Below are positions 29,534 to 51,000 of a DNA stretch of 53,979 bases, piece by piece; position 1 is the stretch's first letter, and every line of letters begins with the position of its first letter. The position numbers were made by a program, and so were the translations under genes. Location of the stretch: assembly GCA_027306785.1 (NCBI GenBank), contig DAHUZB010000029.1, positions 1-53,979 of the forward strand. Direction: 5' to 3'. The notes beneath the pieces were generated by a model. It was given only the letters and a program-made list of their open reading frames with translations. It was not told the origin of the DNA and did not search any database. Origin of the DNA: Vulcanimicrobiota bacterium (GTDB taxonomy: Bacteria; Vulcanimicrobiota; Vulcanimicrobiia; Vulcanimicrobiales; Vulcanimicrobiaceae).

Positions 29534-32500
29534 TTAGTTCGCGGCCAACGGGCGGACGACAATGTCGAGCACGGCCGAACGATCATCGTCGCCGTACTCA
29601 TCGCCGATCACGACCGAACAATGCCCCGGAGCCACGGGATGTACGTCGATTTTTGCGCCCGCTGTTCCGTTTACTAAAGTCCCGGGCTCGATATAAATCC
29701 CCGCGACGGTAGCGCAACTGCTGTTGATCAGACCGAGGCGTAACGGTTCGAAAGCCGACCGCTTTTGCAGTTCAAGAAGCCGGTCCGGAGCGTTCGGTCC
29801 CCGGAACATTACCGTCCCACCGGCCGGTGCGTGCACGAACGACAGACTGCCTGCGACCCTGATCGCGAGATAGACATCTCCGTCGCGCTCGTGGACATCG
29901 AGCATACACGATCCCGAACGAAGCGCGCGTATCGTAACCATCGAGGTGATCGGAGCCAGGCTGCCCTGCGGGCGCGGCGTCAGAGCTGCATTCGCTATCC
30001 CATTGCATCCCCGGGTCGACAACCAATCACCGTAGCGACCTTGATACAACGGCACCCCGACCGGCTTCGCATCTGTCGACGCAAAATCCAATGCCTCGCG
30101 CGTCTGTGCGATTTGAGGGTTCAGCGATAACGGCAAATAGCTGACGACATCGAGGAATATGCGCGCCCGCGGTGTTCCGGAGCCCACATCGTGGAGCGAC
30201 AGAGTCAACGCGCAGTCGCCGGGGACGTGCGCCGTCAGCTCGGCAACGAGAATCCCGGAGCGCACATGTGCCTTGACATCGGGCGCAGCGTCGCCATTTT
30301 CGCAAGGCGAGACTCCGACGGCGAGATTCCCGCGCACGGGTACTGCGAACGAGACTCGCAACGGATGGCCGCCGATTCTCGCATGCACGCGGCGCCCGAG
30401 CGATACGCCTCGCGGACCGCCGCTGTCCCGCGGATTTTCGGAGCGCGCTACGGCGTCGAGGGAGCCCACTGCTACGGCACATACAAGCAGCGCCGCCGCG
30501 GTAACCGTCAAGCGGCGTAGCCGGGATTCATCGCGATCCGTCAGCGCCATCACGATCGCAAGCGCAAGCGCAATGGCCCCGAGCGCGAGCGATACGATCA
30601 GTCCGAGATAGGTGATCGCCTGAGGCCGGAAGAGTAATTCCACGCGAAGCGCAAGTGAACCATCGGCATTAACTCTGTAAAATGCGCGCGGTAGAGTTCG
30701 GCGCAGTGTTGCGGCATCAAGGCTCCAGGCGTTCTCCCCATCGGGCGTCTGCACGTGATCGCCGAGAACCCGGGCGCTTCGGTCGAAGAACGCCCGGAGT
30801 TCCTCCGCTACGGAGCCCCCCGTCGGCGAAGGAGCGCACTCATCGTACTCGTACCCGTGCGCCGCGCGTTGCCGAACCGAAATGCGGCATGGTGATTCGG
30901 CGAACGGAAGTATTCGAGCTTCCCAGCCCGCATGAAACGGCTGGTGGAACACGAGGGTCGTGCGATCCGTCACATGTGCGAAATCCAGATCGTAACGAAG
31001 CGCGTTTACGCGGCGGAGGCGAACCGCGGTCCCGGTTATCGTAGGCACGCGATACGCCGGGTTAAAATAGATTTCAACCGGGCCGTACTCGGCGACCCTG
31101 CGATACCCCGCCACGCGAAGCCACGCCTCCACGTCCGCCATGTGTTGATATTCGGAGACCATGTCGTGGGAAACGACGACATAATCAAGATGGTATTTAC
31201 GTACGAGCCCGGTGAGTGCTACGTACGAAGTATCGAGCTTGCGAATCGATCGATTACTCGGTAGGAACGTTGCGTTGGCATCGAACTGATATTGAGCGGG
31301 GCCGACGAGACGCTCGCTCAATCGGAATACGTCGGAGGTCAAGAGAATATCGAGGATATCTCCTTGGATCGCCGTTCTCTTCCCTTGCCAATCGTACGTC
31401 TCGTAGATGTACGTCGCCGGCACGGCAAGCGCCTGATCGTAGGGGCGCATCCGGGAGCGCAAGAAAGCGCCGGCGGCACGCCAATACGAAGGCACGTGTC
31501 GGACGGTGCGAAGATCGAGCGTTTTCGCTCCGACGGCCCAATACGGAATATTATACAGAAGGCCGCACGCGGCTATCGCAAGCGCGGCAACGACGACTCC
31601 GCGAACCCGTATGCGCTCGCGAATTAATACAAATGCGCCGACCAGAAGGAGCAGATACAGAAGCGGCGCGAGTTTCGTGATATTGCGGAAAATCTGAAAC
31701 GGGACAAAGTGTACGTACAGAAGGTGGTACACGATGTTATCGTTCCCGAACATCGTGAGAATAAGAAGGGCGGCAAGTAAGGCGAACGGTGCGGCGATGC
31801 GCCAGGCCGAATGACGACCTCCGGCGGCAAGCGCACCGAAGCCGAACAGAAAGAACGGGGCGAATCCGAAGGGCCACAGCTGGACAATTCGATAAAACCA
31901 CGCGAACGAGTAGTACGGATTGCCGTTCCAGTTATCGAACAGCCCCCAATCGGTTTGCTGAAGTAATATGTTGAGGAACGCCGCGTTGTTGCTATACATC
32001 CCCTCCGCGGACACCTTCGTAAAATCACTCAGGGGCCCGAGGTAGGTAATGTGACCGATGGTAGCCGTCAGAAGCCAGATCAGTCCCGGAAGCAACAGTG
32101 CGTTTAAAAGCGCGAGTCTCGGCAGCCAACGCCCGGCCGGAACCGCGCGCGTGCGCGAATACACCGCGACAAACACGTTGATTGCCGCAAAAACGATGAC
32201 GTCATGGAAAATATTAAGGTCCGACGTCGTGAAGCCGACGAGAACGAACGGAACGAGAGCCGACCGGTCACCGCAAAACGCGTAGCGAAGACTCCAAAGG
32301 AGCAACAACGGTAACACGAGGTACGGGAGCGCGAAAAAGATGTTGTTCTGGATGAAGTTGAACATCGCGAGCGACGATAGATACAACACTCCGAACAGAC
32401 AGGCTATCGCCCAAGCGGCGATTCCGTCGTCATCGTCGGGGCCGAACTGCAGCAGGAGTCGAACCAGGCCGTACTGTGCGAATCCGAAGCAGATGCCGAC

Positions 32501-32818
32501 GAGGGTGACGTACGCGGTCGCGTCGGGGAGAAACGAACTCAGCGCGTTCTCGGCGGCGTACCACCATGCATATTGCAGCACCCACGGCGCGTGCTGCCCT
32601 TCCTCGAAGAAGGAGCGAAGGTGCAGCAGATCCCAGAAGAAGGCCGTACGATTGAAGCCGTAGATCGAAGATTCGGGGATGATTCCGGACTTGAACGCGC
32701 TTAGCGACCATGCTCCTACGATCCACGGCCATAGAATGGCGAGGATCGAGGCGGCTAAGATGAGGCCCTTTGCCCACCGTACACGAACGGCGGTAGCGGG
32801 CACGGTCGCTTCGCGCAT
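29534..32818 (-). CDS. very large polytopic membrane protein, GT-C-like, with C-terminal soluble domains
   Basis: The 1094 residues contain about 11 helices in the N-terminal 430 residues (SILAILWPWIVGAWS, FFALPYLVLPLLLLWSL, AALAIAACGLLYNIPYW and others). A periplasmic region of about 270 residues follows, then two helices at about 710-790. The 300-residue C-terminal region is rich in beta-strand, with disulfide-prone cysteines (VSPCENGD, GDCALT, GHCSVVIGDEYGDD). The plan resembles mycobacterial arabinosyltransferase-like and YfhO-like proteins, but I cannot name catalytic residues. It is the last gene of a minus-strand operon with the acetyltransferase, dehydrogenase and aminotransferase genes. 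Confidence 0.7.
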   Translation of the reverse strand: MREATVPATAVRVRWAKGLILAASILAILWPWIVGAWSLSAFKSGIIPESSIYGFNRTAFFWDLLHLRSFFEEGQHAPWVLQYAWWYAAENALSSFLPDATAYVTLVGICFGFAQYGLVRLLLQFGPDDDDGIAAWAIACLFGVLYLSSLAMFNFIQNNIFFALPYLVLPLLLLWSLRYAFCGDRSALVPFVLVGFTTSDLNIFHDVIVFAAINVFVAVYSRTRAVPAGRWLPRLALLNALLLPGLIWLLTATIGHITYLGPLSDFTKVSAEGMYSNNAAFLNILLQQTDWGLFDNWNGNPYYSFAWFYRIVQLWPFGFAPFFLFGFGALAAGGRHSAWRIAAPFALLAALLILTMFGNDNIVYHLLYVHFVPFQIFRNITKLAPLLYLLLLVGAFVLIRERIRVRGVVVAALAIAACGLLYNIPYWAVGAKTLDLRTVRHVPSYWRAAGAFLRSRMRPYDQALAVPATYIYETYDWQGKRTAIQGDILDILLTSDVFRLSERLVGPAQYQFDANATFLPSNRSIRKLDTSYVALTGLVRKYHLDYVVVSHDMVSEYQHMADVEAWLRVAGYRRVAEYGPVEIYFNPAYRVPTITGTAVRLRRVNALRYDLDFAHVTDRTTLVFHQPFHAGWEARILPFAESPCRISVRQRAAHGYEYDECAPSPTGGSVAEELRAFFDRSARVLGDHVQTPDGENAWSLDAATLRRTLPRAFYRVNADGSLALRVELLFRPQAITYLGLIVSLALGAIALALAIVMALTDRDESRLRRLTVTAAALLVCAVAVGSLDAVARSENPRDSGGPRGVSLGRRVHARIGGHPLRVSFAVPVRGNLAVGVSPCENGDAAPDVKAHVRSGILVAELTAHVPGDCALTLSLHDVGSGTPRARIFLDVVSYLPLSLNPQIAQTREALDFASTDAKPVGVPLYQGRYGDWLSTRGCNGIANAALTPRPQGSLAPITSMVTIRALRSGSCMLDVHERDGDVYLAIRVAGSLSFVHAPAGGTVMFRGPNAPDRLLELQKRSAFEPLRLGLINSSCATVAGIYIEPGTLVNGTAGAKIDVHPVAPGHCSVVIGDEYGDDDRSAVLDIVVRPLAAN

Positions 32819-35645: not shown

Positions 35646-36482
35646 CTAGACCGGCTCCGAGGGAATCTCCGCGAGGGTGACCTCGCGCCCCCGCTCCGCG
35701 CCCACCCCGAAGCTCCCGTGCTTCCTATCGTAGTAGCGCCGAAGACGGAGGCGATAGAAGATCGCGAGCGTATCCAGCGCAAGCACCCAAACCTGGCGCA
35801 TCGTGATTCGCCCCATCGGGCGTTGGAATTCGAGGCGAACCGGAGCGTCGACGATGCGATAGCCCAGGCTGTGCGCTATCGAGAGGAGCTCGATATCGAA
35901 CGCAAAGCGCTTCGCGAGGACGCGCGGGAAGACATCGTCGAGCAATTCGCGACGGAACAACTTGAGCCCGGTTTGGGTATCCCGCAGCGGGAGCCCGAAG
36001 AGAAGCCGCACGAGCGCGTAGTACCCGACGCTATAGATTTGTCGATGCCATGGATAATTGACGTTCGATTCCGGATGGCGCTTCGAACCGATGACCGCGT
36101 GCGCCCCGGAACTCCGCATAATATGGAAAAAGCGAGGTAGCTGCGACGGATGGAGATCCATGTCGGCATCGAGGAAGACGAGATAGTCGCCCTTTGCATG
36201 CGAGCAACCGGCCATAAGCGCGTTGCCCTTGCCTTGATTCACGTCATAGCGAACGATGCGGACGAACTCGGGATGATCAACCAGGATTTTCGCCGCCTGA
36301 AGGTAGGTGTTGTCGCTGGAGCCGTCGTCCACGAGAATGACTTCATAGTCGCAGCCGAATGTCCCGAGCGTCGCGACGACCTCTTTCAGGTTACCGAGGA
36401 TATGAGCCGATTCATTGAAGGCCGGCATAATGACCGACACCATACCGTCTAGTGCGTACGGCAAAACGTTGTGGCGTGTCAT
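35646..36482 (-). CDS. family 2 glycosyltransferase (dolichyl-phosphate-type)
   Basis: The protein is 278 residues from an ATG at 36482 that overlaps the murJ stop (ATGA). Longer in-frame extensions upstream are Arg-rich shadow. GT-A markers are VSVIMPAFNESAHILGNL, VILVDDGSSDNTYL, GKGNALMAGCSHAKGDYLVFLDADMDLHP with DxD, and the downstream LRDTQTGLKLFRREL typical of DPM/GtrB-type enzymes that load a sugar on a polyprenyl carrier. Unlike GtrB it has no obvious C-terminal transmembrane pair. Coupled to MurJ, it may feed a lipid-linked intermediate. Confidence 0.9.
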   Translation of the reverse strand: MTRHNVLPYALDGMVSVIMPAFNESAHILGNLKEVVATLGTFGCDYEVILVDDGSSDNTYLQAAKILVDHPEFVRIVRYDVNQGKGNALMAGCSHAKGDYLVFLDADMDLHPSQLPRFFHIMRSSGAHAVIGSKRHPESNVNYPWHRQIYSVGYYALVRLLFGLPLRDTQTGLKLFRRELLDDVFPRVLAKRFAFDIELLSIAHSLGYRIVDAPVRLEFQRPMGRITMRQVWVLALDTLAIFYRLRLRRYYDRKHGSFGVGAERGREVTLAEIPSEPV

Positions 36483-38053
36483 GCGATCGGGGCCTCCCGG
36501 TTCTCCGATGGGGTGATCAAGTGCTTCTCGAACTTCGCGATGATGGCTTTCCAAGCGAGATCCAGCTCTTCCACTCCGAGCGCGCGCGCGACGGAAAGGA
36601 AAACGGCTGCACCGATCGCGATCTGACCGGCGAGGTACCAGGCGCGCGCGGCGAACGATGCGTCGGGATGGACGCCGAGCGAAGCGATCCAATGTAACGC
36701 GGCGTACATCGCGCCCGATGCGATGCCGACCTTCACCAGCGACACGATGAGCGCCGACCACTCGATGCCGCGCACGAGGCGCGCCACCAGTAAGAGCAGC
36801 AGCACCGCCTGGAACATCTGACTGAGACTGTTGGCAAGCAAGAGTCCGCGCGCGCCGAGCGAGGGGAGCCACAGCACCGAAAGCAACACATTCAGCAGCA
36901 CGGTCATCACCGAGATCGCCACGGTCGCCGCGGTTTCCTTACAGGCAAAGCAACAGCGCGTCAGCACCACGTTCGCCGCCAGCGCGACGAGCCCGAGCGC
37001 CGAGAACGGCAGCAGCGATGCGGTCAGCGTGGTCGCCGACGGACCGAACGTCCCGCGTTCGAAGAGCGTCTGAATCATGGGGTATGCAAGCACGACGAGC
37101 GCACACGTCGATGGAATCGTGATGAAGTTCACCAGCCGCAGGCCGGTAACCACGCTGCGCGCCACGCCGCGGCGATTGTCTTTCGCGAATTGTGCCGCGA
37201 GCAGCGGAAAGATGACGGTCGCGATCGCGGCCGCGAAAATCTGCTGCGGAAAGTTGACGAGCTTCGTCACGTAGTTCATGCCCGCGATATAGCCCGGGGC
37301 GAGCGTCGATGCGAAGAAGCGATCGAAGAACAACGCGAGTTGCCCCGCCGCACTGCCGATCACGATCGGACCGAGCAGCGTCCACATCTGCTTGAGGCCC
37401 GGGTGCTTCAGATCGATCATGAAGCGATAGCGACCGAGCCGCAAGAACGAAGGCAACTGCACCGCGAACTGCGCGATGAGCCCCCACGTGGTCCCGAAGA
37501 CGAGCGCGAAAATGCCGTAGCGATGGTTGAGCACCATAACGCAGCCGATCGTCACCAGGTTGATCGCGATGCCCGTCAGAGCCGCCGCGCGGAAGCGATG
37601 GTAGGCGTTGAGCATCGCCGTCAGCACGCCGCTCAGGCTCACCGCCACGATACTCGGCATCAACGTGCGCGTCATATGGATCGCAACACCCATCTGCGGC
37701 GGCGGAAACCCGTGCGCGATCAACGGCACGTACCACGGCGCGAGGAAGTAGCCGAGCACCGCGCAGAGCGTCAGCACGACCGCCAGCAGGTTGAGAATCG
37801 TATTGCCGAGCGTCCAGGCGTCGTCTTCGCGGCGATGCGCGATGTAATCCGAAAAGACCGGAACGAGCGCGCTCAGCAGCGCGCCGTTGAAGACGCCGAA
37901 GAGAATCGTCGGAATCGTCGCCGCGGCGAGGAACGTGTCCATCTCCCAATGCGTGCCGTAGTACTTCGCATTGATGACCTCGCGCATGAAGCCGAGCAGC
38001 GTGGACGCAAAGGTGGCCGCCACGACGAACAGCGTCGAGGCCGCAACCGACAT
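36479..38053 (-). CDS. murJ: lipid II flippase MurJ / MviN family
   Basis: A 524-residue inner-membrane flippase with about 14 helices. The N-terminal STLFVVAATFASTLLGFMREVINAKYYGTHWEMDTFLAAATIPTILFGV is the MurJ opening, with the conserved GFxR and DTFLAA stretches. The loop segments HGFPPPQMGVAIHMTRTL and FFDRFFASTLAPGYIAGMNYVTKL are also MurJ-like. It moves lipid II, or in some lineages an O-unit, across the membrane. Given the sugar-transferase and GT2 neighbours, a polysaccharide substrate is possible. Confidence 0.92.
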   Translation of the reverse strand: MSVAASTLFVVAATFASTLLGFMREVINAKYYGTHWEMDTFLAAATIPTILFGVFNGALLSALVPVFSDYIAHRREDDAWTLGNTILNLLAVVLTLCAVLGYFLAPWYVPLIAHGFPPPQMGVAIHMTRTLMPSIVAVSLSGVLTAMLNAYHRFRAAALTGIAINLVTIGCVMVLNHRYGIFALVFGTTWGLIAQFAVQLPSFLRLGRYRFMIDLKHPGLKQMWTLLGPIVIGSAAGQLALFFDRFFASTLAPGYIAGMNYVTKLVNFPQQIFAAAIATVIFPLLAAQFAKDNRRGVARSVVTGLRLVNFITIPSTCALVVLAYPMIQTLFERGTFGPSATTLTASLLPFSALGLVALAANVVLTRCCFACKETAATVAISVMTVLLNVLLSVLWLPSLGARGLLLANSLSQMFQAVLLLLLVARLVRGIEWSALIVSLVKVGIASGAMYAALHWIASLGVHPDASFAARAWYLAGQIAIGAAVFLSVARALGVEELDLAWKAIIAKFEKHLITPSENREAPIA

Positions 38054-38093: not shown

Positions 38094-38735
38094 TTAATGC
38101 GCGCCGTCCTTTCGCAGAACGGCGGGGATCGTCTTGATCACGATCTCCAAATCGCCGAGCGGCGTCCATTCGTCCACGTAGCGGTTGTCGAGTTCCATCC
38201 AGTGATCGAACGAAACTTCGCTGCGCCCGTTGATCTGCCAGAGACAGGTGATGCCCTGCGGCACGAGCAGACGACGGCGCGCAAACGTATCGTAGTGCGC
38301 CACCTCGCACGGCAATGCCGGCCGCGGCCCGACGAGCGACATCTCGCCGCGCACTACATTGAGCAGATTGGGCAGTTCGTCGATGCTGGTGCGGCGCAGC
38401 AGGCCGCCGAGCGGATGCAGACGGGGATCGTTGCGAATCTTGAAGACCGGGCCGTCGGCCTCGTTGAGATGCATCAGCTCGTCACGCAGTTCGTGCGCGT
38501 TCTCCACCATCGTGCGCAGCTTGAACATCTTGAAGCGGCGGCCGTACTGCCCCACGCGCTCCTGCGCGTAAAACGGCGCGCCTCCGGTCACGATCACGAC
38601 GCCGAGCGCAGCGAGCGCGATCACGGGCAGCGCGCAAAGCAGCAACGCGGAACCGAGCGTCACGTCGATGACGCGCTTGATCGTCCACCACGAAGCCGGA
38701 ACCGCGCGTTCCGCCACCTGCACCGCCGCCTGCAT
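38094..38735 (-). CDS. undecaprenyl-phosphate sugar phosphotransferase (bacterial sugar transferase)
   Basis: The 213-residue short, single-helix form of the polyprenyl-phosphate hexose-1-phosphate transferase. A membrane segment TLGSALLLCALPVIALAALGVVIV (about 27-50) is followed by FYAQERVGQYGRRFKMFKLRTMV and the catalytic region KIRNDPRLHPLGGLLRRTSIDELPNLLNVVRGEMSLVGPRP (Asp-Glu). C-terminally the protein has GITCLWQINGRSEVSFDHWMELD. It starts a lipid-linked repeat unit by transferring a sugar phosphate. It lacks the N-terminal four-helix domain of WbaP/WcaJ. Confidence 0.93.
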   Translation of the reverse strand: MQAAVQVAERAVPASWWTIKRVIDVTLGSALLLCALPVIALAALGVVIVTGGAPFYAQERVGQYGRRFKMFKLRTMVENAHELRDELMHLNEADGPVFKIRNDPRLHPLGGLLRRTSIDELPNLLNVVRGEMSLVGPRPALPCEVAHYDTFARRRLLVPQGITCLWQINGRSEVSFDHWMELDNRYVDEWTPLGDLEIVIKTIPAVLRKDGAH

Positions 38736-38738
38736 GCG

Positions 38739-39854
38739 CTAGAGTCCGAACGCCTCCATCACCGTGCGTCCCACGTTATCCAGCCCCTCCAGCTCGCCGA
38801 TGGCGGCACCGGGGCGATCGCTCAGATGAATGAACGGCACGAATTCGCGCGTGTGGTCGCTGCCGGGCGCCGTCGGATCGCAGCCGTGGTCGGCGGTAAA
38901 GATCACCTGATCCTCCGGGCGCAGCAATGATTCCAAGCGCGGCACGAGCGCGTCGAGCGCTTCGAGCGCATCCGCGTAGCCGCGCACGTTGCGACGATGC
39001 CCGTATTTCGAATCGAAGTCGTTGAGGTTCGTGAAGATGAAGCCATGATCGACCCGTTCCAAAAGCTCGAACGTCTTCTCCATGGCATCGCGGTTGTCCG
39101 TAACCCGCACCGACGAGGCGATGCCGTGCCCGCAGTAGATATCGCAAATCTTCCCGACGGCGTGGACACCTACACCACGATCCGCCAGCCGGTCGAGGAC
39201 GCTCTGTGGCGGCTCGATGGCATAGTCCCGACGATTCGGCGTCCGCACGAAGGCCCCCGGTTGCCCCACGAAGGGCCGCGCGATCACGCGGTTGACGTTG
39301 TGCGGCTCGACCAGCATCGCTCGCACCCGTTCGCACCAATCGTACAAAACGGCAAGAGGAACAACCTCTTCATGCGCGGCGACCTGGAAGACCGAGTCGG
39401 CCGAGGTATAGAGGATCGGGCGCCCCGTCGCGATGTGCTCGGCGCCGAGCTCTTCGATGATCTCGGTCCCCGAAGCCGGCTTGTTCCCGAGCGGCGCCTT
39501 GCCGGTAATCCGCGTAAACTGCTCCACGAGCTCCTCGGGGAAGCCCTCCGGATAGGTCGGGAACGGCACGGCGGTGATGATGCCGGCCATCTCCCAATGC
39601 CCGGTGATCGTGTCCTTGCCGCGGCTACGTTCGCGCAGACGGCCGACCCGAGCGCGCGGCTCGGCTACCGGCGCCACACCCTCGATCGCGGTCAGGTGCC
39701 CCAGGCCCAGGCGCTCGAAAGCGGGCAGGCGCAGGCCGCCGACGCGCCTGGCTACGTTGCCGATCGTGTTGGCGCCGCTCGCATCGCCGTACTGGATGAA
39801 ATCGGGGAGCGCGCCGATGCCGCCGGAGTCCAAAACAATCGTAACAACACGCAT
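38739..39854 (-). CDS. deoB: phosphopentomutase
   Basis: A 371-residue alkaline-phosphatase-superfamily enzyme interconverting (deoxy)ribose-1-phosphate and 5-phosphate. The first metal Asp is in VVTIVLDSGGIGALPD. RSRGKDTITGHWEMAG holds the Thr that is phosphorylated. NLNDFDSKYGHRRN, ADHGCDPTAPGSDHTRE and the intervening His/Asp residues complete the two-Mn site. Pyrimidine-nucleoside phosphorylase at 44233 would supply its substrate. It is separated from the sugar transferase by 3 nt and probably heads the transcript that runs to the GT2 at 35646. Confidence 0.95.
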   Translation of the reverse strand: MRVVTIVLDSGGIGALPDFIQYGDASGANTIGNVARRVGGLRLPAFERLGLGHLTAIEGVAPVAEPRARVGRLRERSRGKDTITGHWEMAGIITAVPFPTYPEGFPEELVEQFTRITGKAPLGNKPASGTEIIEELGAEHIATGRPILYTSADSVFQVAAHEEVVPLAVLYDWCERVRAMLVEPHNVNRVIARPFVGQPGAFVRTPNRRDYAIEPPQSVLDRLADRGVGVHAVGKICDIYCGHGIASSVRVTDNRDAMEKTFELLERVDHGFIFTNLNDFDSKYGHRRNVRGYADALEALDALVPRLESLLRPEDQVIFTADHGCDPTAPGSDHTREFVPFIHLSDRPGAAIGELEGLDNVGRTVMEAFGL

Positions 39855-39950: not shown

Positions 39951-41747
39951 ATGCGTCTTCTTTTGCACGTGCGACAAAGATCGATCCTCATCGCGCTCAT
40001 GCTCGCGTCGGTGCTGTTCGCGCCCGTCGTTGCGCGCGCCGATGCGGTCGCGCCCTCGCTCGTGGTGCATCTGCGCGCGGATCACATCGAATTCTATTAC
40101 GATCGCTACTTGATCGAAGCCGACGGTCACGTGCGAGTGCGGATGAGCGACGGCACCACGGTCACGGGCGACGCGTTCTCGATGGATTTGAAACTTAATC
40201 GGTTCTTAATCGCGAGCCACGTGCATCTGCAGAGTAGCGGGGGCAACCTCGACGGCGCGGCGATCGCCGATTTTCTGGATTTCCGGCGTATCTACTTCGT
40301 GCCGGTGCTCGCGAAGCCGGATCGTTGGACCTACGAAAACGGCGATTATCGCCGGCCGATCAAAGGCCGCGAGATGCCCGGCGATACGTTCTACTTTCCG
40401 GATCTCTCGCACGCGACGCCGCAACTGAGCGCTAAATCGGCCACCATCGGCGCCAAGTCGTACGTTCGCTTCGGCGACGTCACGTCGTACGTCTTTCACG
40501 TGCCGGTGCCGCTGCCGTCGTACTACGTGTACTTCGGCACCAATCAGGATCTCGCGCAGAACTCGCTCTCGGGCGCTAACCTCGATCTCACCTGGAACGC
40601 GACCGGCAGCAACAACACGATCTCCGCCGTGCACCTTCGCCACGACACGCAGAACGGAAATTACCTCGCGTTCGAACAGCATTTCGCGGGCGCCCACGAA
40701 TATGCGGTGGTCTCGGTCAACCCGGCGACGCGTCTCGGCAAGTTCTGGAATATGAACGCGGGCGATCGCATCGGGAATCGGCTACAGCTCAACGTGTTCG
40801 AGCAGTATTACACCGAGCAGCACCTGTTCGGCCGTCAGCACGCGGCGGCGAGCTACACCTTTCTCGATCTCAACCAGGCGTTGCCGCACTCGTACCTCCA
40901 GGCCGTCATCCAGCAAACCTACTACAACCTGATCGGCAAGGGGTCGCCCGCGATTCCGAACCACCCGATCCAGCTCCACATCTACGGCTCGAGCTTCAAC
41001 AACCGCATTTTCAAGACGCCGTTTTACGAACAGATTCACTGGGGCATCGGGTTCAATCACGACACCTCGACCGGCTACCACAACGTCACCGGTCTGCAGA
41101 CGTACGGCGGCTACACCTACACGACGATCTGGGATCATCTGCTCGGGTACACGGTCTATCTGCCGAACTTCAAATTCGGCAATCGCGACAACCCGTACAA
41201 GACGTTCTACTTCAACGCGACGCTGAGCGCGCAGCGCCAGTGGTTCAGCGTGCCGCATCACACGAACTCCGCAACGACCAACCTCTCGGTCAGCCGCCAA
41301 TTTTCGCGTGACATTTCGGCGTACGTCGCGTACAACGTGACGAACACCGGCGATTACTACAATCACGGCGGCTACACACCGTACGCGCCCACCGACGCGA
41401 GCGGCAATCCCGACTACGGATTCCTCGCGTTTCGCGGCGCGGCCACGCTACGCACGGCGACGCTCGGCATCAACTACAGCGCGAACCCCGACTTCACGGC
41501 GTCGCTCACCTTCGATCGCCATAAGGATTTCCCGGCGGCGGTGCCCGGCGTCTTTCCGCTGCCGCCGACCAACAATATCGGGCAGTACCTCTACACGAAC
41601 TATCTCGGCCAGCCGCCCTACGACATCACCGGCAACGTGCGCGCGCGCCTCCTACCGCATCTCATGATCGACGTGCAGCGCACCTACTTCTTCAACTTCG
41701 GGACCGAAAAGTGGAGCCCGCAGTTTCTGGTGCAATGCACGCAATGA
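39951..41747 (+). CDS. LptD/OstA-like outer-membrane protein
   Basis: The 598 residues start with a signal peptide (LIALMLASVLFAPVVARA, about 12-30). An OstA/LptA-like domain (LVVHLRADHIEFYYDRYLIEADGHVRVRM, then GDAFSMDLKLNRFL) lies at about 37-110. After this comes a barrel-like region to the C-terminus with alternating aromatic strands (LQLNVFEQYYTEQHLF, SYTFLDLNQ, YTYTTIWDHLLGYTVYLPNFKFG, TATLGINYSANPDFTASLTF). The general design matches LptD but is shorter, with no Cys pair. It may insert LPS or another glycolipid in the outer membrane. An AT-rich 96-nt gap separates it from divergent deoB. It is coupled by ATGA to the next gene. Confidence 0.75.
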   Translation: MRLLLHVRQRSILIALMLASVLFAPVVARADAVAPSLVVHLRADHIEFYYDRYLIEADGHVRVRMSDGTTVTGDAFSMDLKLNRFLIASHVHLQSSGGNLDGAAIADFLDFRRIYFVPVLAKPDRWTYENGDYRRPIKGREMPGDTFYFPDLSHATPQLSAKSATIGAKSYVRFGDVTSYVFHVPVPLPSYYVYFGTNQDLAQNSLSGANLDLTWNATGSNNTISAVHLRHDTQNGNYLAFEQHFAGAHEYAVVSVNPATRLGKFWNMNAGDRIGNRLQLNVFEQYYTEQHLFGRQHAAASYTFLDLNQALPHSYLQAVIQQTYYNLIGKGSPAIPNHPIQLHIYGSSFNNRIFKTPFYEQIHWGIGFNHDTSTGYHNVTGLQTYGGYTYTTIWDHLLGYTVYLPNFKFGNRDNPYKTFYFNATLSAQRQWFSVPHHTNSATTNLSVSRQFSRDISAYVAYNVTNTGDYYNHGGYTPYAPTDASGNPDYGFLAFRGAATLRTATLGINYSANPDFTASLTFDRHKDFPAAVPGVFPLPPTNNIGQYLYTNYLGQPPYDITGNVRARLLPHLMIDVQRTYFFNFGTEKWSPQFLVQCTQ

Positions 41748-42568
41748 TTCCGCGTCCCGTTCGCGCCGTCTGCGCCGCGCTCGCCGTCATCCTGCTCGCG
41801 GTGAACGCCCCGATCTCGATCACCGGGCAACTGCTTGCGTACCAGCAGGGCTACGTGTTTTTCACCACCGGTGACGGCTTCCGCGTGGCCCCGACGGTGC
41901 GCATTCTCGACGACCGCACGAAGCAGCCGGCGAAGGAAGCGCCCGCGCCGCGGATCTACGCGCGTGCCACCTTCGATGCGAGCGGCACGGTGGTCGAACT
42001 CGATCTCTCGCACAGGCCGCTGCCCGTCGAACCGCTGCCGGCGGACGTGCAGCAGTTTGCGGTGGTCGCATCCACGCCGTTCCCGAACCCCGAACTGATC
42101 CCGAAGGCCTCGGATAACGCGGCTCCGAGCGGCATGGATGTCGGCGTCTCGGGCAAGATCGTGCTCGTCACGATCACCGTGCAGGTGCCGCCGTCGACGC
42201 CGTTCGGTTCGCAAATCTTCATCACCACCGACGCGAGCGGCTGGAATCCGCAGGCGATCGCTATGGATCGCATCGATGCGCTGCACTTCCGCATCACGCG
42301 CCACATCGCGTCGGGAACGATTCTCCACTATCTCTACACGCGCGGATCGTTGCAAACCGAGGAGCGCGCGGAGAACGGCCTCGATCGCAAGCCGCGCCTG
42401 CTGCGCGTGAGCGATGCCGACGTGCGCTTGGTCGACGACGTCGTCTACGCGTGGGCGGATCAGAGCGGCGGAACGCAGTTGCCGCAACCGAACACGCTTC
42501 CCACACCGTACAATCCGGCGCCGTTCCCGAATCTGCCGCCGGGCCTGCCGACCCCGAATCCGCGCTAG
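41744..42568 (+). CDS. exported protein with a CBM20-like (starch-binding-like) fold
   Basis: The 274 residues start at an ATG overlapping the barrel gene's stop (another ATG at 41735 is possible). A single N-terminal hydrophobic segment (AVCAALAVILLAVNAPISITG) is a signal or anchor. The second half reads VTITVQVPPSTPFGSQIFITTDASGWNPQ, then TILHYLYTRGSLQTEERAENGLDRKPRLLRV and VYAWAD. This is the beta-sandwich pattern of CBM20/esterase-type glycan-recognition domains (gWnp, yTRGsw-tvE, nR-l-v, V--W-D). The C-terminus is Pro-rich. It is likely in the periplasm or on the outer surface, partnering the LptD-like barrel. No catalytic residues are seen. Confidence 0.65.
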   Translation: MIPRPVRAVCAALAVILLAVNAPISITGQLLAYQQGYVFFTTGDGFRVAPTVRILDDRTKQPAKEAPAPRIYARATFDASGTVVELDLSHRPLPVEPLPADVQQFAVVASTPFPNPELIPKASDNAAPSGMDVGVSGKIVLVTITVQVPPSTPFGSQIFITTDASGWNPQAIAMDRIDALHFRITRHIASGTILHYLYTRGSLQTEERAENGLDRKPRLLRVSDADVRLVDDVVYAWADQSGGTQLPQPNTLPTPYNPAPFPNLPPGLPTPNPR

Positions 42569-43185
42569 CGGATCTGCAGCGAGACCGAGCGACGCACCGC
42601 CGCGCCCTCGGTGTTGCGGGCGATCACGTCGAGTTGATAGCGTCCATGTAGAAAGAACGGCACGTTCGGCACGGTGTACGAGAGTGCGAAATGCCCCTCG
42701 CTCACTTTGGGCAGCGCGACCGAGAAGTTTGCGAGGCGAGCCACCACGCTCGCAACGTTCGACGAGGTGACGACCACGCCCGACACGGTGTCGCCCGCAT
42801 GCAGCAGCGTACGGGTGATCTCCACGCTGACGATTCGCGGCGGCGCATCGGCGGGCAGCACCGGCACATCCGGCGCCGGTGTCGTCGTGGGCGCAGCCGT
42901 CGGGATCGGCGTGGGCTTCGGCGTCGATGTCGGCTCCGGTGAAGGCGTGGGCGTCGGCGCGGCCGTTGCGTGAACCGCCTCGGGCGCCGCCGCCGCTGAC
43001 GGCCGCGCGGCGGGCGTCGGAGCGAGCGTAGGGGTGGCGCTTGCCGTCACGCTCGGAGCGGCGGTCGGAACGACGGTCGCCGACGGCGTCGGCGACGGCG
43101 TTGAGTCGGGTGAGGGCTTCTCGGCGGGCGCGCACGATGCGAGAAGCGTCAGGAGGAGCAGAACGGCGGATATCCGGAGAGGCAT
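42565..43185 (-). CDS. lipoprotein with Pro/Thr/Ser-rich linker and Ig-like domain
   Basis: The 206 residues carry the lipobox LLASC, with Cys21 as the acyl anchor. A low-complexity linker of about 90 residues rich in Pro, Thr, Ser and Ala reaches roughly residue 115. A compact beta-sandwich follows (PPRIVSVEITRTLLHAGDTVSGVVVTSS, given here as a segment about residues 116-143, to YQLDVIARNTEGAAVRRSVSLQIR). The start chosen is the ATG at 43185; upstream in-frame sequence is not coding-like. It is convergent with the CBM20-like gene, and the two stops overlap in the palindromic CTAG. Function unknown; probably spans the periplasm. Confidence 0.75.
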   Translation of the reverse strand: MPLRISAVLLLLTLLASCAPAEKPSPDSTPSPTPSATVVPTAAPSVTASATPTLAPTPAARPSAAAAPEAVHATAAPTPTPSPEPTSTPKPTPIPTAAPTTTPAPDVPVLPADAPPRIVSVEITRTLLHAGDTVSGVVVTSSNVASVVARLANFSVALPKVSEGHFALSYTVPNVPFFLHGRYQLDVIARNTEGAAVRRSVSLQIR

Positions 43186-43266: not shown

Positions 43267-44229
43267 ATGACGAACTCCACCGCGGCTCCCCCGAGCTTGA
43301 GCATCGTCGTCCCGCTCTATAACGAAGAGGGGAACGTCGCGCCGCTGCTCGCTCGCATCGCCGGCATCCTCGAGCGCTTGCCAAACCTGCCGTCGCACGA
43401 GATCGTGCTCGTGAACGACGGCAGCAAAGACGGTACGCTCGCGGCGATCCGCGCGGAGATGCGCGCGCGTCCGAACGTGGTGCTGGTGAACCTCTCGCGC
43501 AATTTCGGTCACCAGCTTGCGGCTTCGGCGGGCATCGAGATCGCACAGGGCGACGCGGTCGTGCTCATGGACGGGGATCTGCAAGATCCCCCCGAGCTCA
43601 TCGCCGAGTTCGTCGCGAAGTGGCGCGAAGGCTTCGACGTCGTGTACGCGGTGCGCCGCACGCGCAAGGGCGAGAGCGCCTTCAAGCTCTTCACCGCGCG
43701 ACTCTTCTACCGCACGATCAAGCGTCTAACCAAAGTCTCGATCCCGGTCGATACCGGCGATTTTCGTCTGATGAGCCGACGCGTGGTCAACGCGCTCAAG
43801 CAATCGCCCGAGCGCCATCGCTTTCTCCGCGGCCTGGTGAGCTGGGTCGGGTACAACCAAATCGGCGTCGAGTACGATCGCGACGAACGCTTGAGCGGCG
43901 AGACGAAGTATCCGCTACCGAAGATGCTGCGCTTCGCGATCGACGGCATCACCTCGTTCTCCGACGTGCCGCTACGCTTCGCGTCGTACCTGGGCTTTGT
44001 CGCTTCGGTCGTCGCGTTCGTCTACGCGTTGGTGGTCGTCGGATTCAAGCTCTTCAGCCTGCATCCGCCGGGGTACACGCGCGGCTGGGCGTCGACCATC
44101 GTCGCCGTGCTCTTCCTGGGCGGCGTGCAGTTGATCAGTCTGGGAATCCTCGGTGAGTACATCGGGCGCATTTACGACGAAGTCAAAGGTCGGCCGCTCT
44201 ATCTCATCAGCGAGATCGAGCGCAGCTAG
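43267..44229 (+). CDS. family 2 glycosyltransferase, GtrB/ArnC-like
   Basis: The 320 residues include SIVVPLYNEEGNVAPLLARI, EIVLVNDGSKDGTLAAI, VNLSRNFGHQLAASAGIEIAQGDAVVLMDGDLQDPPE with the DxD metal site, then DTGDFRLMSRRV and GETKYPLPKML. Two C-terminal transmembrane helices (about 240-262 and 275-300) match GtrB/ArnC/DPM1-type enzymes that transfer a sugar to undecaprenyl phosphate. It is convergent with the phosphorylase gene, with stops 3 nt apart. Confidence 0.93.
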   Translation: MTNSTAAPPSLSIVVPLYNEEGNVAPLLARIAGILERLPNLPSHEIVLVNDGSKDGTLAAIRAEMRARPNVVLVNLSRNFGHQLAASAGIEIAQGDAVVLMDGDLQDPPELIAEFVAKWREGFDVVYAVRRTRKGESAFKLFTARLFYRTIKRLTKVSIPVDTGDFRLMSRRVVNALKQSPERHRFLRGLVSWVGYNQIGVEYDRDERLSGETKYPLPKMLRFAIDGITSFSDVPLRFASYLGFVASVVAFVYALVVVGFKLFSLHPPGYTRGWASTIVAVLFLGGVQLISLGILGEYIGRIYDEVKGRPLYLISEIERS

Positions 44230-45524: not shown

Positions 45525-46793
45525 GTGCACTACGCGCCGGTCATCGACCGCTTTCCGATCACGCCCGCGCTCGGTCCGGCCTCGCTTGCGATCTTTGCCG
45601 GAGCCTTCGTCGCAACCGCCCTCGCCGCGCTGCGGCGCCCGGCCTTCGGCATCGCGGCGCTCGCCTTCGTCACGCCCTTCGCGTTCGCGCACGCGATCGC
45701 GGGCACCACGCTCACGCTCCCGAAGGCGGTACTGCTCGGCGTCGCCTGTGCGCTGCCCTATCGCACCCTCGGCGCGCAACTGCGCACGGCGCCGCTGCGC
45801 GGCGTTCTCGCCGCGTTCGGCGTGCTGATCGCCGCGATCGCGCTCACGCTGCTCGCGGCCGAACATCGCGCCGATACGCTGCGCGAGACGGCGAAGTGGA
45901 TCGAGTACGCCGCGTTCGTGCTTGTCGCGGCACTCGGCTATCGTGCCGATCCCGACGCGCCGCTCGTGCGCCGCGCCTTCTGCGCGAGCATCGCAATCGT
46001 CTGCGCGAGCGCGCTCGTGCAAGAAGCGATCGGCGCGCCGTGGGGCATCGTCTTCGGCCACGGCGTCGCACCGCGCATCGCGGGCGCGCTCGGCGGCCCC
46101 AATCAGCTCGCCGGGTACCTCGAGATCGCAGCCGCGCTGCTCGCCGCGTGGAATGCGAAAACGCCGTCGCGTGCACGGGCACTGCTGCTCGGCGTCGTCG
46201 CGGTCACGCTGCTGCTCACGTTTTCGAAGGCGGGGATCGCCGCTTCGGCCGTCGCGGTCGCGGTCGTCGCCTGGTGCGAACGGGCGAGCGCACTACGCGC
46301 GGCCGCGCCGTATCTCGCGGGCGCCGCGCTCGGACTCGCCGCCGACGGCGGGTGGATCCTCGCCGCCAAAACGCTGCCCGCCTTGCGCGCGACCGACGTG
46401 CACGGCGACTACGCGGGCGGCGTGGGCCATCGCGCGGAACTCTGGCGCGCGGCGTGGTTCTTCTTCAGCCGACATCCGCTGCTCGGCATCGGCGCCGGCA
46501 ACTACGAATTCGAACTCGCCGATGCGGGGCTGGTCGGCGTGCGCACGCACGCGAACAGCTGGTACCTGCAGGCGCTTGCCGAGGGCGGCATCGTGCTCTT
46601 CGGCGCGACGCTCGCGCTCATCGCCGCGATCGTCGCCGCTCTGCGCACGCGGTTGCAGCGTTCGCCGTGGGCGCTCGCCGCGTTCGCCGCGACGATCGCG
46701 CTCGTGTTGCACCAGACCGTCGACTATCTGGTCTTCTATCCGAAAGTGGCCGAGCCGTGGATGCTGCTGATCGCTCTCGGCATCGCGGCCTAA
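45525..46793 (+). CDS. O-antigen ligase / polymerase family membrane protein
   Basis: The 422 residues start at a GTG and have about 11 hydrophobic helices. The large periplasmic loop of the Wzy_C family contains HPLLGIGAGNYEFELADAG and RTHANSWYLQALAEGGIVLF, the His-containing stretch usual in WaaL/Wzy. It has GGPNQLAGYLEIAAALLAAW before it, another family-typical sequence. It joins O-units or ligates the finished chain. No clear SD precedes the GTG. Confidence 0.85.
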   Translation: MHYAPVIDRFPITPALGPASLAIFAGAFVATALAALRRPAFGIAALAFVTPFAFAHAIAGTTLTLPKAVLLGVACALPYRTLGAQLRTAPLRGVLAAFGVLIAAIALTLLAAEHRADTLRETAKWIEYAAFVLVAALGYRADPDAPLVRRAFCASIAIVCASALVQEAIGAPWGIVFGHGVAPRIAGALGGPNQLAGYLEIAAALLAAWNAKTPSRARALLLGVVAVTLLLTFSKAGIAASAVAVAVVAWCERASALRAAAPYLAGAALGLAADGGWILAAKTLPALRATDVHGDYAGGVGHRAELWRAAWFFFSRHPLLGIGAGNYEFELADAGLVGVRTHANSWYLQALAEGGIVLFGATLALIAAIVAALRTRLQRSPWALAAFAATIALVLHQTVDYLVFYPKVAEPWMLLIALGIAA

Positions 46794-48082
46794 TCCTCGC
46801 GCTCGGCCCGCTCGCGCTCGCGACGGGCGCATGCGCCGCGCGCGCGCTGCTCGCACATGCTCCCGCGCGCTTTGCAATCGACCGCGCGCAGGCGCTCGCC
46901 GTCGCGACGAATTGGGGCGGCTACGGCACGGCGCAGTGGCTGCTGCTCGCCGCCGCGCTCGCATGCGCGGCGATCCCGTCTGCCGTCGTCCTTCGCGGCC
47001 GGGGCGCGCCGCCGCTCGCGATGACGCTCGGATATGCCGCCGCGTCCATGCTCGCGGGATTCGCCTGGCTGCCGCTCTTCTCGAGCGACGTCTACGCGTA
47101 CGCCGCCTACGGCGAGATGGCCCGACTCGGCCTCGATCCCTATCTGCACGCATCGGCTTCAACCCATGCCGCGGCGATCGACGCGGCTCGTTGGCAGTGG
47201 AGCGGGTCGCTGCCGATCTGCGTCTACGGTAGCGCCTTCGTCGCGCTCGCCCGCGCGGTGATGACGCTCTGCGCGCACGCGCCGCTCGTCGCCGCGCTCG
47301 ACACGCTGCGCGCGCTCTCGTGCGCGGCGGCGCTCGTCAGCGCGGCGCTGCTCTACGCGGTGCGCGGCGGCGACACGCGGAGCAAGCGGCGCACGGCGTT
47401 CGTCTTTGCCGCTAATCCGGTCGTGCTGTGGAGTGCGATCGAGGGCCACAACGATACGCTGATGCTCGCGATCGTGCTCGCGGGCGCATGGCTCGCGCGT
47501 CGGCGTCTCGCCGCGGGCATCGCGCTCGTCGCCTTGGGCGCGCTCGTGAAGCTGCCCGCACTCGCGGCGGCGAGCGCGATGAGCGCGCAGCGCATCCTCG
47601 CGCGCCGCGACGCACTGCAGGCCGCGGGCGGGTGGATCGTCGGCACGCTCGCGGTCGTCGCGGGATCGCTCGCGCTGCTTCACGGGGTGCGCAGCGATCT
47701 CGCGCCGCACGGCCACTACGCGCCGCAAGGCTCGGTGCAGGCGCTCTCGCCGATCCTCGCCGGGCTGCTCGCGCTCGCGGTGCTCCTGCGCCTGCGCGCG
47801 TTCGAGCACGGATTCGATCGCTGGACGATCGCGGCACTGGCGCTCTGGCTCGCGATTCCCAACCCGTACCCGTGGTACGGGCTCTGGATCGTGCCGCTCG
47901 GCGCGCTCGCTCGCGACGGGCGCATCCGGGCCGCCGCCTGCACGATCGCCGCGGTGGCGCTGCTTCGCTACCTCCCCGACGCAGCCGGTACGCCCGATCC
48001 GCTCGCGAGCGCCGGGCTCGCGGCACTTGCGCTTGCGGCCTACGCCCCGCTCTTCTCCCGTGCTATAATCAGCCGCTCGTAA
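46757..48082 (+). CDS. GT-C-like polytopic membrane glycosyltransferase
   Basis: The protein is 441 residues from a GTG at 46757, which overlaps the ligase gene by 37 nt. This is the only start codon I see near the first helix; upstream in-frame sequence is Arg-rich shadow. It has 11-12 helices. The first loop has the acidic SSDVYAYAAYGEMARLGLDPY typical of GT87/mannosyltransferase-like GT-C proteins (an Asp-containing loop that binds the polyprenyl-phosphate sugar). NPVVLWSAIEGHNDTLML and LWLAIPNPYPWYGLWIVPL are also characteristic. It is likely to use a lipid-linked mannose or similar sugar. Confidence 0.8.
   Translation: MDAADRSRHRGLILALGPLALATGACAARALLAHAPARFAIDRAQALAVATNWGGYGTAQWLLLAAALACAAIPSAVVLRGRGAPPLAMTLGYAAASMLAGFAWLPLFSSDVYAYAAYGEMARLGLDPYLHASASTHAAAIDAARWQWSGSLPICVYGSAFVALARAVMTLCAHAPLVAALDTLRALSCAAALVSAALLYAVRGGDTRSKRRTAFVFAANPVVLWSAIEGHNDTLMLAIVLAGAWLARRRLAAGIALVALGALVKLPALAAASAMSAQRILARRDALQAAGGWIVGTLAVVAGSLALLHGVRSDLAPHGHYAPQGSVQALSPILAGLLALAVLLRLRAFEHGFDRWTIAALALWLAIPNPYPWYGLWIVPLGALARDGRIRAAACTIAAVALLRYLPDAAGTPDPLASAGLAALALAAYAPLFSRAIISRS
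48061..48069 (+). promoter_or_regulatory. extended -10 promoter candidate for mfd
   Basis: TGCTATAAT is a perfect extended -10 box (TGn plus TATAAT, 48064-48069), lying inside the last codons of the upstream gene and 16 nt before the mfd ATG. No -35 box sits at 16-18 nt, which an extended -10 can do without. The leader would be about 9 nt. Confidence 0.4.
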
Positions 48083-48084
48083 TC

Positions 48085-51000
48085 ATGCATACCGATGTTC
48101 CCACCGCGCCCGCGCCTTCGGCGCGCGGCCTGCACGATGCCCTGCTGCGCGCCCTACCCGCCGCAAGCCGCCCGCTCGCCGAGCTGATCGAGGCGCTGCG
48201 GACGGGGCGCGGCGCACACGCATGCCACGAAACCGTGGCGGCCGCGCGCCCGGCGCTGCTGGCCGCGCTCTACCGCACGCTCTCCGTGCCGATGCTCGTG
48301 ATCGTGCCGACCGCCGACGTGGCCGAGCGCGCCTTCGCCGATCTCCTCTACTACCTCGGCGAGAGCGAGCCCACGCAAGTCGCCCTGCTGCGCTCGCGCG
48401 ATGAAGCGATCGGCGCGATCGAATCGCCGTCGGAGCGCAGCGCGCGCATGACGTTGCTCGCCGATCTCGCGAACGACGCGCATCGCCTGGTGCTCGCGCC
48501 GGTGAGCGCGCTGCGTCAGTATCTGATGCCGCGCGCGCTCTTCGACGATCTGCGCTTCACGCTGCGCGTCGGGGACGAAGCGGGTTGGGATACGCTGCAG
48601 TCCAAGCTCTTCTCGCTCGGCTACGCGCGCACCGACGTGGTGAGCGCGGTCGGCGAGTACGCGGTGCGCGGCGGAATCATCGACATCTTCGCCGCCACGG
48701 CCGACGCACCGACGCGCATCGAATTCTTCGGCGACGAGATCGAAAGCATTCGCCCCTTCGATCTCGTGACGCAGCGCAGCGAAGGCACGCTCGATGCGCT
48801 GCCGATCGTGCCGTGGAGCGAGATCCCGCGCGATCCGCAGTACCGCGAGCGCATCCTCGCGCGTTTCGACGGCCCCGAGCGCGTGCGCGACGTACTCGCC
48901 TCGTTCGTGGAGAGCGGCAGCGAGCTGCCCGCATCGTGGCTTCCGCTCGCGCACGACGAACGCGCGACGATTCTCGACTATCTCGCGCCGCGCACCGCGA
49001 TCGTGCTCGACGAACCGTCGATGCTCGCCACCATCGAACGCGCGCTCGAAGAGGAGCGCTCGCGCGAACAGAGCGTGCTGCTCGCGGGCGTCGAGTCGGG
49101 CGAGTTTTCGGTCAACACCACCGAGGTGGACGAAGCGCTGCTCGCCGAGGTGGCGACTCCGCATCCGCGCCTGGCCGAGATGGCGACGGCGTTTGCGGCG
49201 CACCCGGTCGCCGTCTTTCCCGGCGCGATCGACTCGCCCGATACGCTTGCGTGGGTGCCGCCGATTCGTTCCACGCACGTGATCGAATGTCGTCCGGCCG
49301 AGCACTTCAACCGACAGATCGATCTCTTCTCGCAGAGCGTGCGCGAATGGGTCGCTCAGGGCGAGACGCTCTTCATCGCGAGCGGCTCCGTCTCGCGCAC
49401 GAGCGATCTGCTGCGCGCGGTCGGCGTGCAGGTCGAACGCAACCTCACCCACCTCCACCTGCGGCCTCTGCGAGCGCTCCTTCGACAAGCTCAGGATGAC
49501 ACGGGGAGCTCGGGTGACACGGGGAGCTCGGGTGACACGGGGCGGGTGATCATCGATCACGGCAGCATCGAGGCGGGCTTCGTGATTCCCGATCTGCGCC
49601 TGCGGGTGCTCGGCGATCGCGAAATCTTCGGCCAGCCGCCCAAACGCGTCAAACTGCGCGCGGTGAAAGAAGGCGTGCCCGTCACGCTCGCCGATCTGAA
49701 GGTCGGCGATTACGTCGTGCACGCCGTGCACGGCATCGGGCAATACCTCGGCTTGCGCACGGAGACGATTCTCGGCGCCACGCAAGACTATCTCGATCTG
49801 CAGTACGCGGGATCGGATCGCATGCTCGTCCCGGTGACGCAGATGCATCAGGTCACCAAGTACTCCGCGGCCGAAGGGCAGTCGCCGCGCCTCTCCAAGA
49901 TGGGCGGCGCCGACTGGGCGCGCGCGAAGACGCGCGTCTCCGAATCGCTCGCGAAGATCGCCGACGGCCTCGTCGCGCTCTACGCCGAGCGCGAGCTCGC
50001 GCGCGGCTACGCCTTCTGCGAAGACACGGCCTGGCAGACCGAGATGGAAGAGGCCTTCCCCTACGAGCCGACCGCCGATCAGAAAAAAGCGATCGAATCG
50101 ACCAAACGCGACATGGAGAGCGCACGCCCGATGGACCGCCTGGTCTGCGGCGACGTGGGCTACGGCAAGACCGAAGTCGCGATGCGCGCCGCATTCAAGG
50201 CGATCGCGGATCAGAAGCAAGTGGCGGTGCTCGTGCCGACCACGCTGCTCGCCGATCAGCACTACCGCAACTTCTCGTCGCGTTTCGCGGGCTATCCGGT
50301 GCGTATCGAAGAGGTTTCGCGCTTCAAGACCAAGGCCGAATCGAAAGCGATCCTGAGCGACCTCGCGCTCGGCAAAGTCGACGTGATCATCGGCACGCAT
50401 CGATTGCTGCAAAAAGACGTCGCCTTCGCCGATCTCGGGCTCATCATCATCGATGAGGAGCAGCGCTTCGGCGTGATGCACAAGGAGCGCCTCAAAGAGT
50501 ACAAGACGTCGGTCGACGTGCTCACCCTCTCGGCGACGCCGATTCCGCGCACGCTGCACATGTCGCTGATGGGCGTGCGCGATCTCTCGCTCATCCAGAC
50601 CGCGCCGAAGAACCGCATGTCGGTCAAGACCGTCGTGGTTCCCACGAGCGACGCGATCGTGCAGCGCGCGATCACCGCCGAACTCGATCGCGGGGGACAG
50701 GTGTACTACCTGCACAATCGCGTCGAATCGATCTACGCGGTCAAGAACGCGCTCGAGCGGCTGGTGCCGCGCGCGCGCATCGCGGTCGGACACGGGCAGA
50801 TGCACGAGCACGAACTCGAACCGGTCATGCAGGATTTCATCGAGGGCAAGACCGACGTGCTCGTCGCGACCACGATCATCGAGAACGGTATCGATATTCC
50901 GAACGTCAATACGATGATCGTCAACGACGCCGACAAATTCGGCCTCGCGCAGCTCTATCAGTTGCGCGGACGCGTCGGGCGTTCGAACCATCAGGCCTAC

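Follow-up and report, generated by a model that had tools for sequence, protein, structure and literature searches.

We analyzed a 53,979-nucleotide stretch of DNA from a Vulcanimicrobiota bacterium (GenBank assembly GCA_027306785.1, contig DAHUZB010000029.1, positions 1 to 53,979 of the forward strand; the whole stretch is referred to below as the window), focusing on two overlapping genes that we call A and B. Both are intact reading frames, and both products have a signal peptide, recognized by eye. A contains an OstA (LptA/LptD N-terminal) like region followed by a probable outer-membrane barrel, and B contains a CBM20-like domain. The pair has the following organization:

39951..41747, plus strand: gene A (598 amino acids); signal peptide, OstA/LptD-N-like domain, probable outer-membrane barrel; class-wide family.
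40056..40247, plus strand: OstA-like region of A, residues ~36–99, located with hhalign against the phylum's LptD profile.
41744..41747, plus strand: start-stop overlap of A and B, ATGA, read from the sequence.
41744..42568, plus strand: gene B (274 amino acids); signal peptide, small N-terminal domain of no recognized type, CBM20-like domain, proline-rich tail.
42167..42391, plus strand: CBM20-like domain of B, residues ~142–216; PF00686 at E 0.2, with homologous paralogs over the cut-off.

The ATG of B at 41744 overlaps the TGA of A at 41745–41747, though a longer mechanical open reading frame of B opens at a GTG at 41711. Across 38 genomes, the window's own included, gene A ends in ATGA in 28, in GTGA in 6, and never in TTGA or CTGA, and the frame opened in all 34 ATGA or GTGA cases is B. 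Of three further genomes, two (G009, G024) have B beginning where the A stop ends, and in one (G036) B and the stop share a single base. An earlier note, made from the window's sequence alone, had taken the overlap to imply joint synthesis of the two proteins. That proposal is strongly supported, as 37 of the 38 genomes have the B frame beginning at the A stop or overlapping it.

The pair is nearly restricted to one class of the phylum. Sixty relatives include 51 with A (one of them, G057, only marginally, at E 7.3e-4), 50 with B (the match in G008 is a fragment), and 49 with both, and a profile search of 149 genomes of the phylum identified A in 110 and B in 104. We define the class as families f1–f3, comprising 117 genomes – a count made from the listed rows that assumes unlisted, matchless genomes to fall outside the class, and on which the A and B profile searches agree. 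Within it, A is present in 109 genomes (weakly in G034, G030, and G119, and as a second copy only in G046) and B in 103, some of the compared genomes being incomplete. The 32 genomes outside the class yielded one weak A match (G133, E 3.8e-4) and one B match (G059, an esterase fusion). The earlier note had raised the question of whether the pair is rarely conserved; it is not rare, with A followed by B on one strand, at most 250 bases between the matched stretches, in 95 of the 102 listed genomes that encode both. The seven exceptions are a spacing of 280 bases (G031), placement on different contigs (G049, G073, and G117), a listed A that is apparently the second copy (G040 and G122), and a rearranged locus (G048).

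In a tree of 51 A-family proteins, rooted at its midpoint for drawing only, the nine f3 A proteins cluster together (100/100), and a single branch (95/98) divides all 41 A rows from all ten rows of second copies, which we call A2. Since A2 is found in f1, f2, and f3, the simplest reading is one duplication before these families split, together with mainly vertical descent. Sequence and profile searches found no A2 in the window's own genome. A second, diverged pair, A2-B2, lies behind the first in five of 17 f1/f2 neighbourhoods (L072, L073, L076, L077, and L078), and A2 lies behind an aminotransferase-type gene in 5 f3 loci.

Profile comparisons identify the N-terminal region of A as homologous to the LptA/LptD (OstA) domain. 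The A profile aligned to the phylum's LptD profile over A residues 37–281 (E 1.1e-4, probability 56%), with a score of 47.7; two sets of 60 shuffles reached no more than 25.3 and 27.6, and the reversed profile scored 23.7. The OstA part alone aligned at E 1.9e-6, scoring 36.8 where none of 300 shuffles exceeded 19.3 (hhalign). Pfam matches among 35 aligned A members were weak and scattered over 14 families at E ≤ 1, including LptC (2 members), OstA_2 (1), and LptD_N (1), and the A profile matched nothing among solved structures. For the remainder of the protein we turned to beta-type amphipathicity, a measure that is not specific to membrane barrels (the OstA region of A gives 2.8 and that of core LptD, described below, −0.5). 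The last 418 residues of A have a z of 3.7 (2.7 from the single sequence), compared with 4.7 for core LptD, 3.2 for E. coli LptD, 3.2 for BamA, and −1.5 to 0.7 for deoB, family 2 glycosyltransferase, thymidine phosphorylase, and B. A is thus an OstA-domain protein whose remainder is probably a barrel, in a layout resembling that of LptD, where the LptD homology covers the N-terminal part. The earlier note's observation of an LptD-like protein with a CBM20-like partner and an ATGA overlap was confirmed, its barrel part resting on the amphipathicity just described.

We considered A as the only LptD of its genome and rejected this, as an LptF/G-linked LptD is found on contig C18. There, an LptF/G gene – the second in the genome – is followed by a gene for an 869-amino acid protein that has no Pfam match itself but whose family profile matches a solved LptD at E 1.1e-11 and E. 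coli LptD at E 3.7e-5. The family is present in 59 of the 60 relatives, among them the five that represent other families within the phylum (E 4.5e-6 to 4.2e-27). On these alignments the C18 protein is the genuine core LptD, separate from A. The Pfam LptD model (PF04453) matches none of 61 genomes, own included, which is weak evidence because the model misses the phylum's own LptD and matches 2 of 14 controls. Other parts of the route, which the earlier note had suggested locating, are likewise encoded elsewhere in the genome. By family match, contig C5 encodes TamB, BamA, LpxC, LpxB, LptB (329.8 bits, cut-off 240), the first LptF/G gene, and DUF3084. Contig C35 encodes a 228-amino acid LptC/LptA-like protein. 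The C5 region (L092:1-18000) is a compact outer-membrane biogenesis cluster in which OmpH, LpxD, FabZ, and LpxA were recognized by eye. LptF/G is present in all 60 relatives, mostly twice. Vulcanimicrobium is described as having a lipopolysaccharide-covered outer membrane (PMC9758169), and WPS-2 genomes as encoding LPS synthesis genes and BamA (PMC6664022), in the available passages of both sources. The presence of a separate LptD beside LptF/G in the same genome, from so widespread a family, supports the view that the pair is not the standard lipopolysaccharide (LPS) route.

A CBM20-type domain in B is well supported through its paralogs; the same does not hold for starch binding. Seven of 37 B-family members match CBM_20 at E ≤ 1 (best 0.0022). 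The CBM_20 cut-off is passed by some protein in 10 of the 60 relatives, nine of them f3 genomes in which the site is one that the B sequence itself matches (E 2.0e-10 to 1.8e-17), and three f3 B paralogs scanned as proteins scored 24.6–28.8 bits. These three (L144:976-1815, L145:1453-2283, and L148:877-1815) lie away from A, and each adjoins two genes named by eye, one fructose-1,6-bisphosphatase-like and one for a membrane protein. The tenth protein over the cut-off is that of G059 (L143:1318-2625), in which CBM_20 is fused to an esterase domain (PF00756); the B profile also found it, at E 2.5e-14. When the three paralogs were added to the B profile, the best match among solved structures was the starch-binding domain of glucoamylase, a weak match (E 0.46) with its tryptophan in register. 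Without them, the sole solved-structure match was an unrelated reductase, and a single B paralog matched nothing. The tryptophan that aligns with the glucoamylase-domain tryptophan, Trp167, is invariant in all 37 B members.

CBM20 domains are usually starch binders, and A-B might accordingly import or capture external alpha-glucan at the cell surface, with the CBM20-like domain of B gripping the glucan and A serving as the channel. The fructose-1,6-bisphosphatase-like neighbour of the f3 paralog B2 in three loci would suit such a role. We nonetheless regard it as very unlikely: the OstA domain belongs to the export of amphipathic lipids, and no glycoside hydrolase was found among the window proteins scanned with Pfam (a set short of every open reading frame). 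In addition, of the glucoamylase starch site, which we take to be two tryptophans and one lysine, the position aligned to the lysine is leucine in the window's B and lysine in 3 of 37 members; the position of the second tryptophan is uncertain, with a tryptophan nearby in 18 of 37.

A different reading of B would make its CBM20-like domain merely structural or protein-binding, with A-B moving or inserting a non-glycan cargo such as a lipid or lipoprotein. The G059 protein, where CBM_20 is fused to an esterase and not an amylase, fits this reading, as does the debate on what part the LptD homolog of Borrelia plays in surface lipoproteins (PMC11784454, in the passages available). The conservation of polysaccharide-synthesis neighbours argues against it, and we give it a small chance.

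That neighbourhood comprises the following genes in the window:

36479..38053, minus strand: MurJ flippase (PF03023; TIGR01695 over cut-off).
38094..38735, minus strand: Bac_transf polyprenyl-phosphate sugar transferase (PF02397; NCBIfam sugar-transferase models under their cut-offs).
38739..39854, minus strand: deoB-like metalloenzyme, the divergent neighbour of A (PF01676); deoB is the name that we presume for it.
42565..43185, minus strand: gene C, a probable lipoprotein (lipobox by eye, from the translation), tail-to-tail with B and possibly an accessory.
43267..44229, plus strand: family 2 glycosyltransferase (PF00535).
45525..46793, plus strand: Wzy_C/O-antigen ligase-type membrane protein (PF04932, E 5.3e-15).

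A-B sits in a conserved polysaccharide-synthesis neighbourhood. Of the 17 neighbourhoods examined in f1 and f2, 16 have the sugar transferase and MurJ genes before A on the opposite strand, 15 keep deoB, and 16 have the glycosyltransferase following. In f3, deoB, the sugar transferase, and A are found in order on one strand in 8 of 10 loci (the exceptions are G048 and G049); B comes after A in 7 of these, and the remaining locus reaches the end of its contig. The link to a polysaccharide made in the earlier note is therefore supported by these conserved neighbours. Gene C encodes a Pro/Thr-rich linker and a C-terminal domain, has no Pfam family at E ≤ 1, and has matches near A in many relatives, some of which are perhaps low-complexity.

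Several features of the window stand apart from this neighbourhood. Positions 15168-16817 encode the alpha subunit of lysine 5,6-aminomutase (PF09043, E 1.5e-239), and positions 29534-32818 (minus strand) a 1094-amino acid protein that, judged by eye, has many membrane segments and that matches no Pfam family at E ≤ 0.001. The open reading frame at 48154-51315 (minus strand) looks like an antisense shadow of the plus-strand gene in frame 47428-51699, and we rejected both it and its matches in relatives as a neighbour gene and left it out of the argument.

In a further explanation, A would supply the barrel for a short OPX (Wza-type) protein that exports free polysaccharide, as described in Myxococcus. 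The window's genome has one Poly_export match, in a 292-amino acid frame, and Class 3 OPX proteins (median 256 amino acids) are exemplified by WzaX/S/B with separate barrels in the available passages of PMC9603273. That single match is on another contig (C11), however, and Poly_export, present in 41 of the 60 relatives, is absent from 15 of the 51 that encode A. None of the 35 A and 37 B members scanned matches Poly_export (Pfam, E ≤ 1), and the same passages mention neither an OstA domain nor LptD. We consider this the least probable of the explanations given here, and only a slender one.

The neighbourhood bears on the possibility that A-B serves LPS itself as a second LptD, which would handle long, O-antigen-bearing LPS while core LptD handles short LPS, with B recognizing the O-antigen sugars. 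LpxC is encoded in 58 of the 60 relatives. A Wzy_C/O-antigen ligase-type gene stands directly before A, between it and the sugar transferase, in 5 of the 10 f3 loci, and the two LptF/G genes of the genome make one shared bridge plausible. Against this, studied bacteria export O-antigen-bearing LPS through a single LptD, and the present data do not indicate O-antigen in the class. We judge a second LptD for LPS to be unlikely, though the sequence does not separate O-antigen-bearing LPS from another glycolipid as the cargo.

Our best explanation is that A and B form an auxiliary, class-specific complex of the outer membrane, an offshoot of the LPS transport pathway, that exports a lipid-anchored glycan beside core LptD. 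What we infer here comprises the barrel, the complex, the direction of transport, the cargo, and the role of B. We reasoned that a lipid-anchored glycan fits because the OstA domain suits the lipid part, the barrel the exit, and the CBM20-type partner the sugar, and because the neighbours are those of polysaccharide synthesis. The OstA domain of A would take the glycan from a periplasmic Lpt-type carrier, and the barrel would release it to the outer leaflet. B, produced from the same transcript, may sit at the periplasmic side or inside the barrel, its CBM20-like domain touching the sugar part. It could select the cargo or, alternatively, act as the plug and assembly factor in the role that LptE fills elsewhere. 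Extending this, the class may run two Lpt-derived exits: core LptD for LPS and A-B for another lipid-anchored glycan, with the CBM protein reading the sugar in the place of LptE.

A number of results weigh against this explanation. Over their C-terminal halves, A and core LptD align at shuffle level (26.2, with a maximum of 26.0 in 60 shuffles), the middle part of A alone aligns weakly to core LptD (E 0.021), and A does not match E. coli LptD alone (E 0.24). A matches neither Pfam (E ≤ 1) nor NCBIfam (E ≤ 0.01), and the G010 paralog of A clears the LptD_N cut-off when the genome is searched (21.1 bits) but falls short of it when scanned as a protein (18.2 bits). B scores below the CBM_20 cut-off (11.9 bits, cut-off 23.3, E 0.2), and in its family only one of the three starch-site residues is clearly kept. 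AlphaFold2 models of A and B have pLDDT values of 28.4 and 32.5, with no usable fold. The genome has two LptF/G genes, the number expected for one Lpt machine, and in G048 a rearrangement leaves A and B apart. Because the barrel half of A is at shuffle level, we hold the explanation tentatively, at somewhat less than an even chance, and consider the two-exit extension possible but doubtful.

These proteins bear on how an outer membrane is assembled in diderm Terrabacteria, where outer-membrane lipoproteins are not used, a question that is open according to the available passages of PMC11784454. There, outer-membrane lipoproteins such as LptE are reported to be well conserved only in Gracilicutes. 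The contrast that the earlier note drew with standard LPS transport, which uses LptE, is consequently weaker than stated. The LptE family (PF04390) was not matched by the 37 B members (Pfam, E ≤ 1; LptE was not searched genome-wide). We also found no lipobox, by eye, in the N-terminus of the window's B. A class-wide partner that lacks a lipobox and goes together with an LptD-like protein offers a concrete, testable candidate for the question above and, if the proposed role is true, would show that duplication of the Lpt exit can serve a second cargo. Among the matches listed in open-licence PMC papers, we found no paper on a CBM20-type protein paired with an LptD-like protein, and no LptD paper on Eremiobacterota, Vulcanimicrobiota, or WPS-2.

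A-B resembles several known systems in part. Class 3 OPX proteins with poly-N-acetylglucosamine (PNAG)-porin-like barrels (Myxococcus WzaX/S/B) likewise join a barrel to a periplasmic partner for polysaccharide exit (PMC9603273, available passages), whereas A-B is not paired with Poly_export. GfcD/YjbH with GfcB/GfcC of the group 4 capsule is similar in that a lateral-gate barrel, which its authors compare with LptD, has been proposed from simulation to handle a lipid-anchored polysaccharide (PMC11494523). GfcD differs in its predicted double barrel, with no OstA domain mentioned in the available passages of that source, and the YjbH/GfcD family is not among the 14 Pfam families matched by A members. 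B shares with the CBM20 starch-binding domain a sequence family, by way of its paralogs, and the invariant tryptophan, but B is secreted, is coupled to an outer-membrane-type protein, has no enzyme domain, and has a score of its own under the cut-off. The pair also resembles LptD/LptE in layout, since A has an OstA domain followed by a probable barrel and is coupled to a dedicated secreted partner. B departs from LptE in its CBM20-like domain as well as in its lack of a lipobox and of an LptE match, and A departs from LptD in aligning to that family in its N-terminal part only and in coexisting with a real LptD. Finally, the Borrelia Lpt system, which operates without LPS or LptE, offers an LptD-type exit with no identified LptE (PMC10353723, available passages); the Borrelia protein is the LptD ortholog of its organism, whereas A is additional to core LptD.

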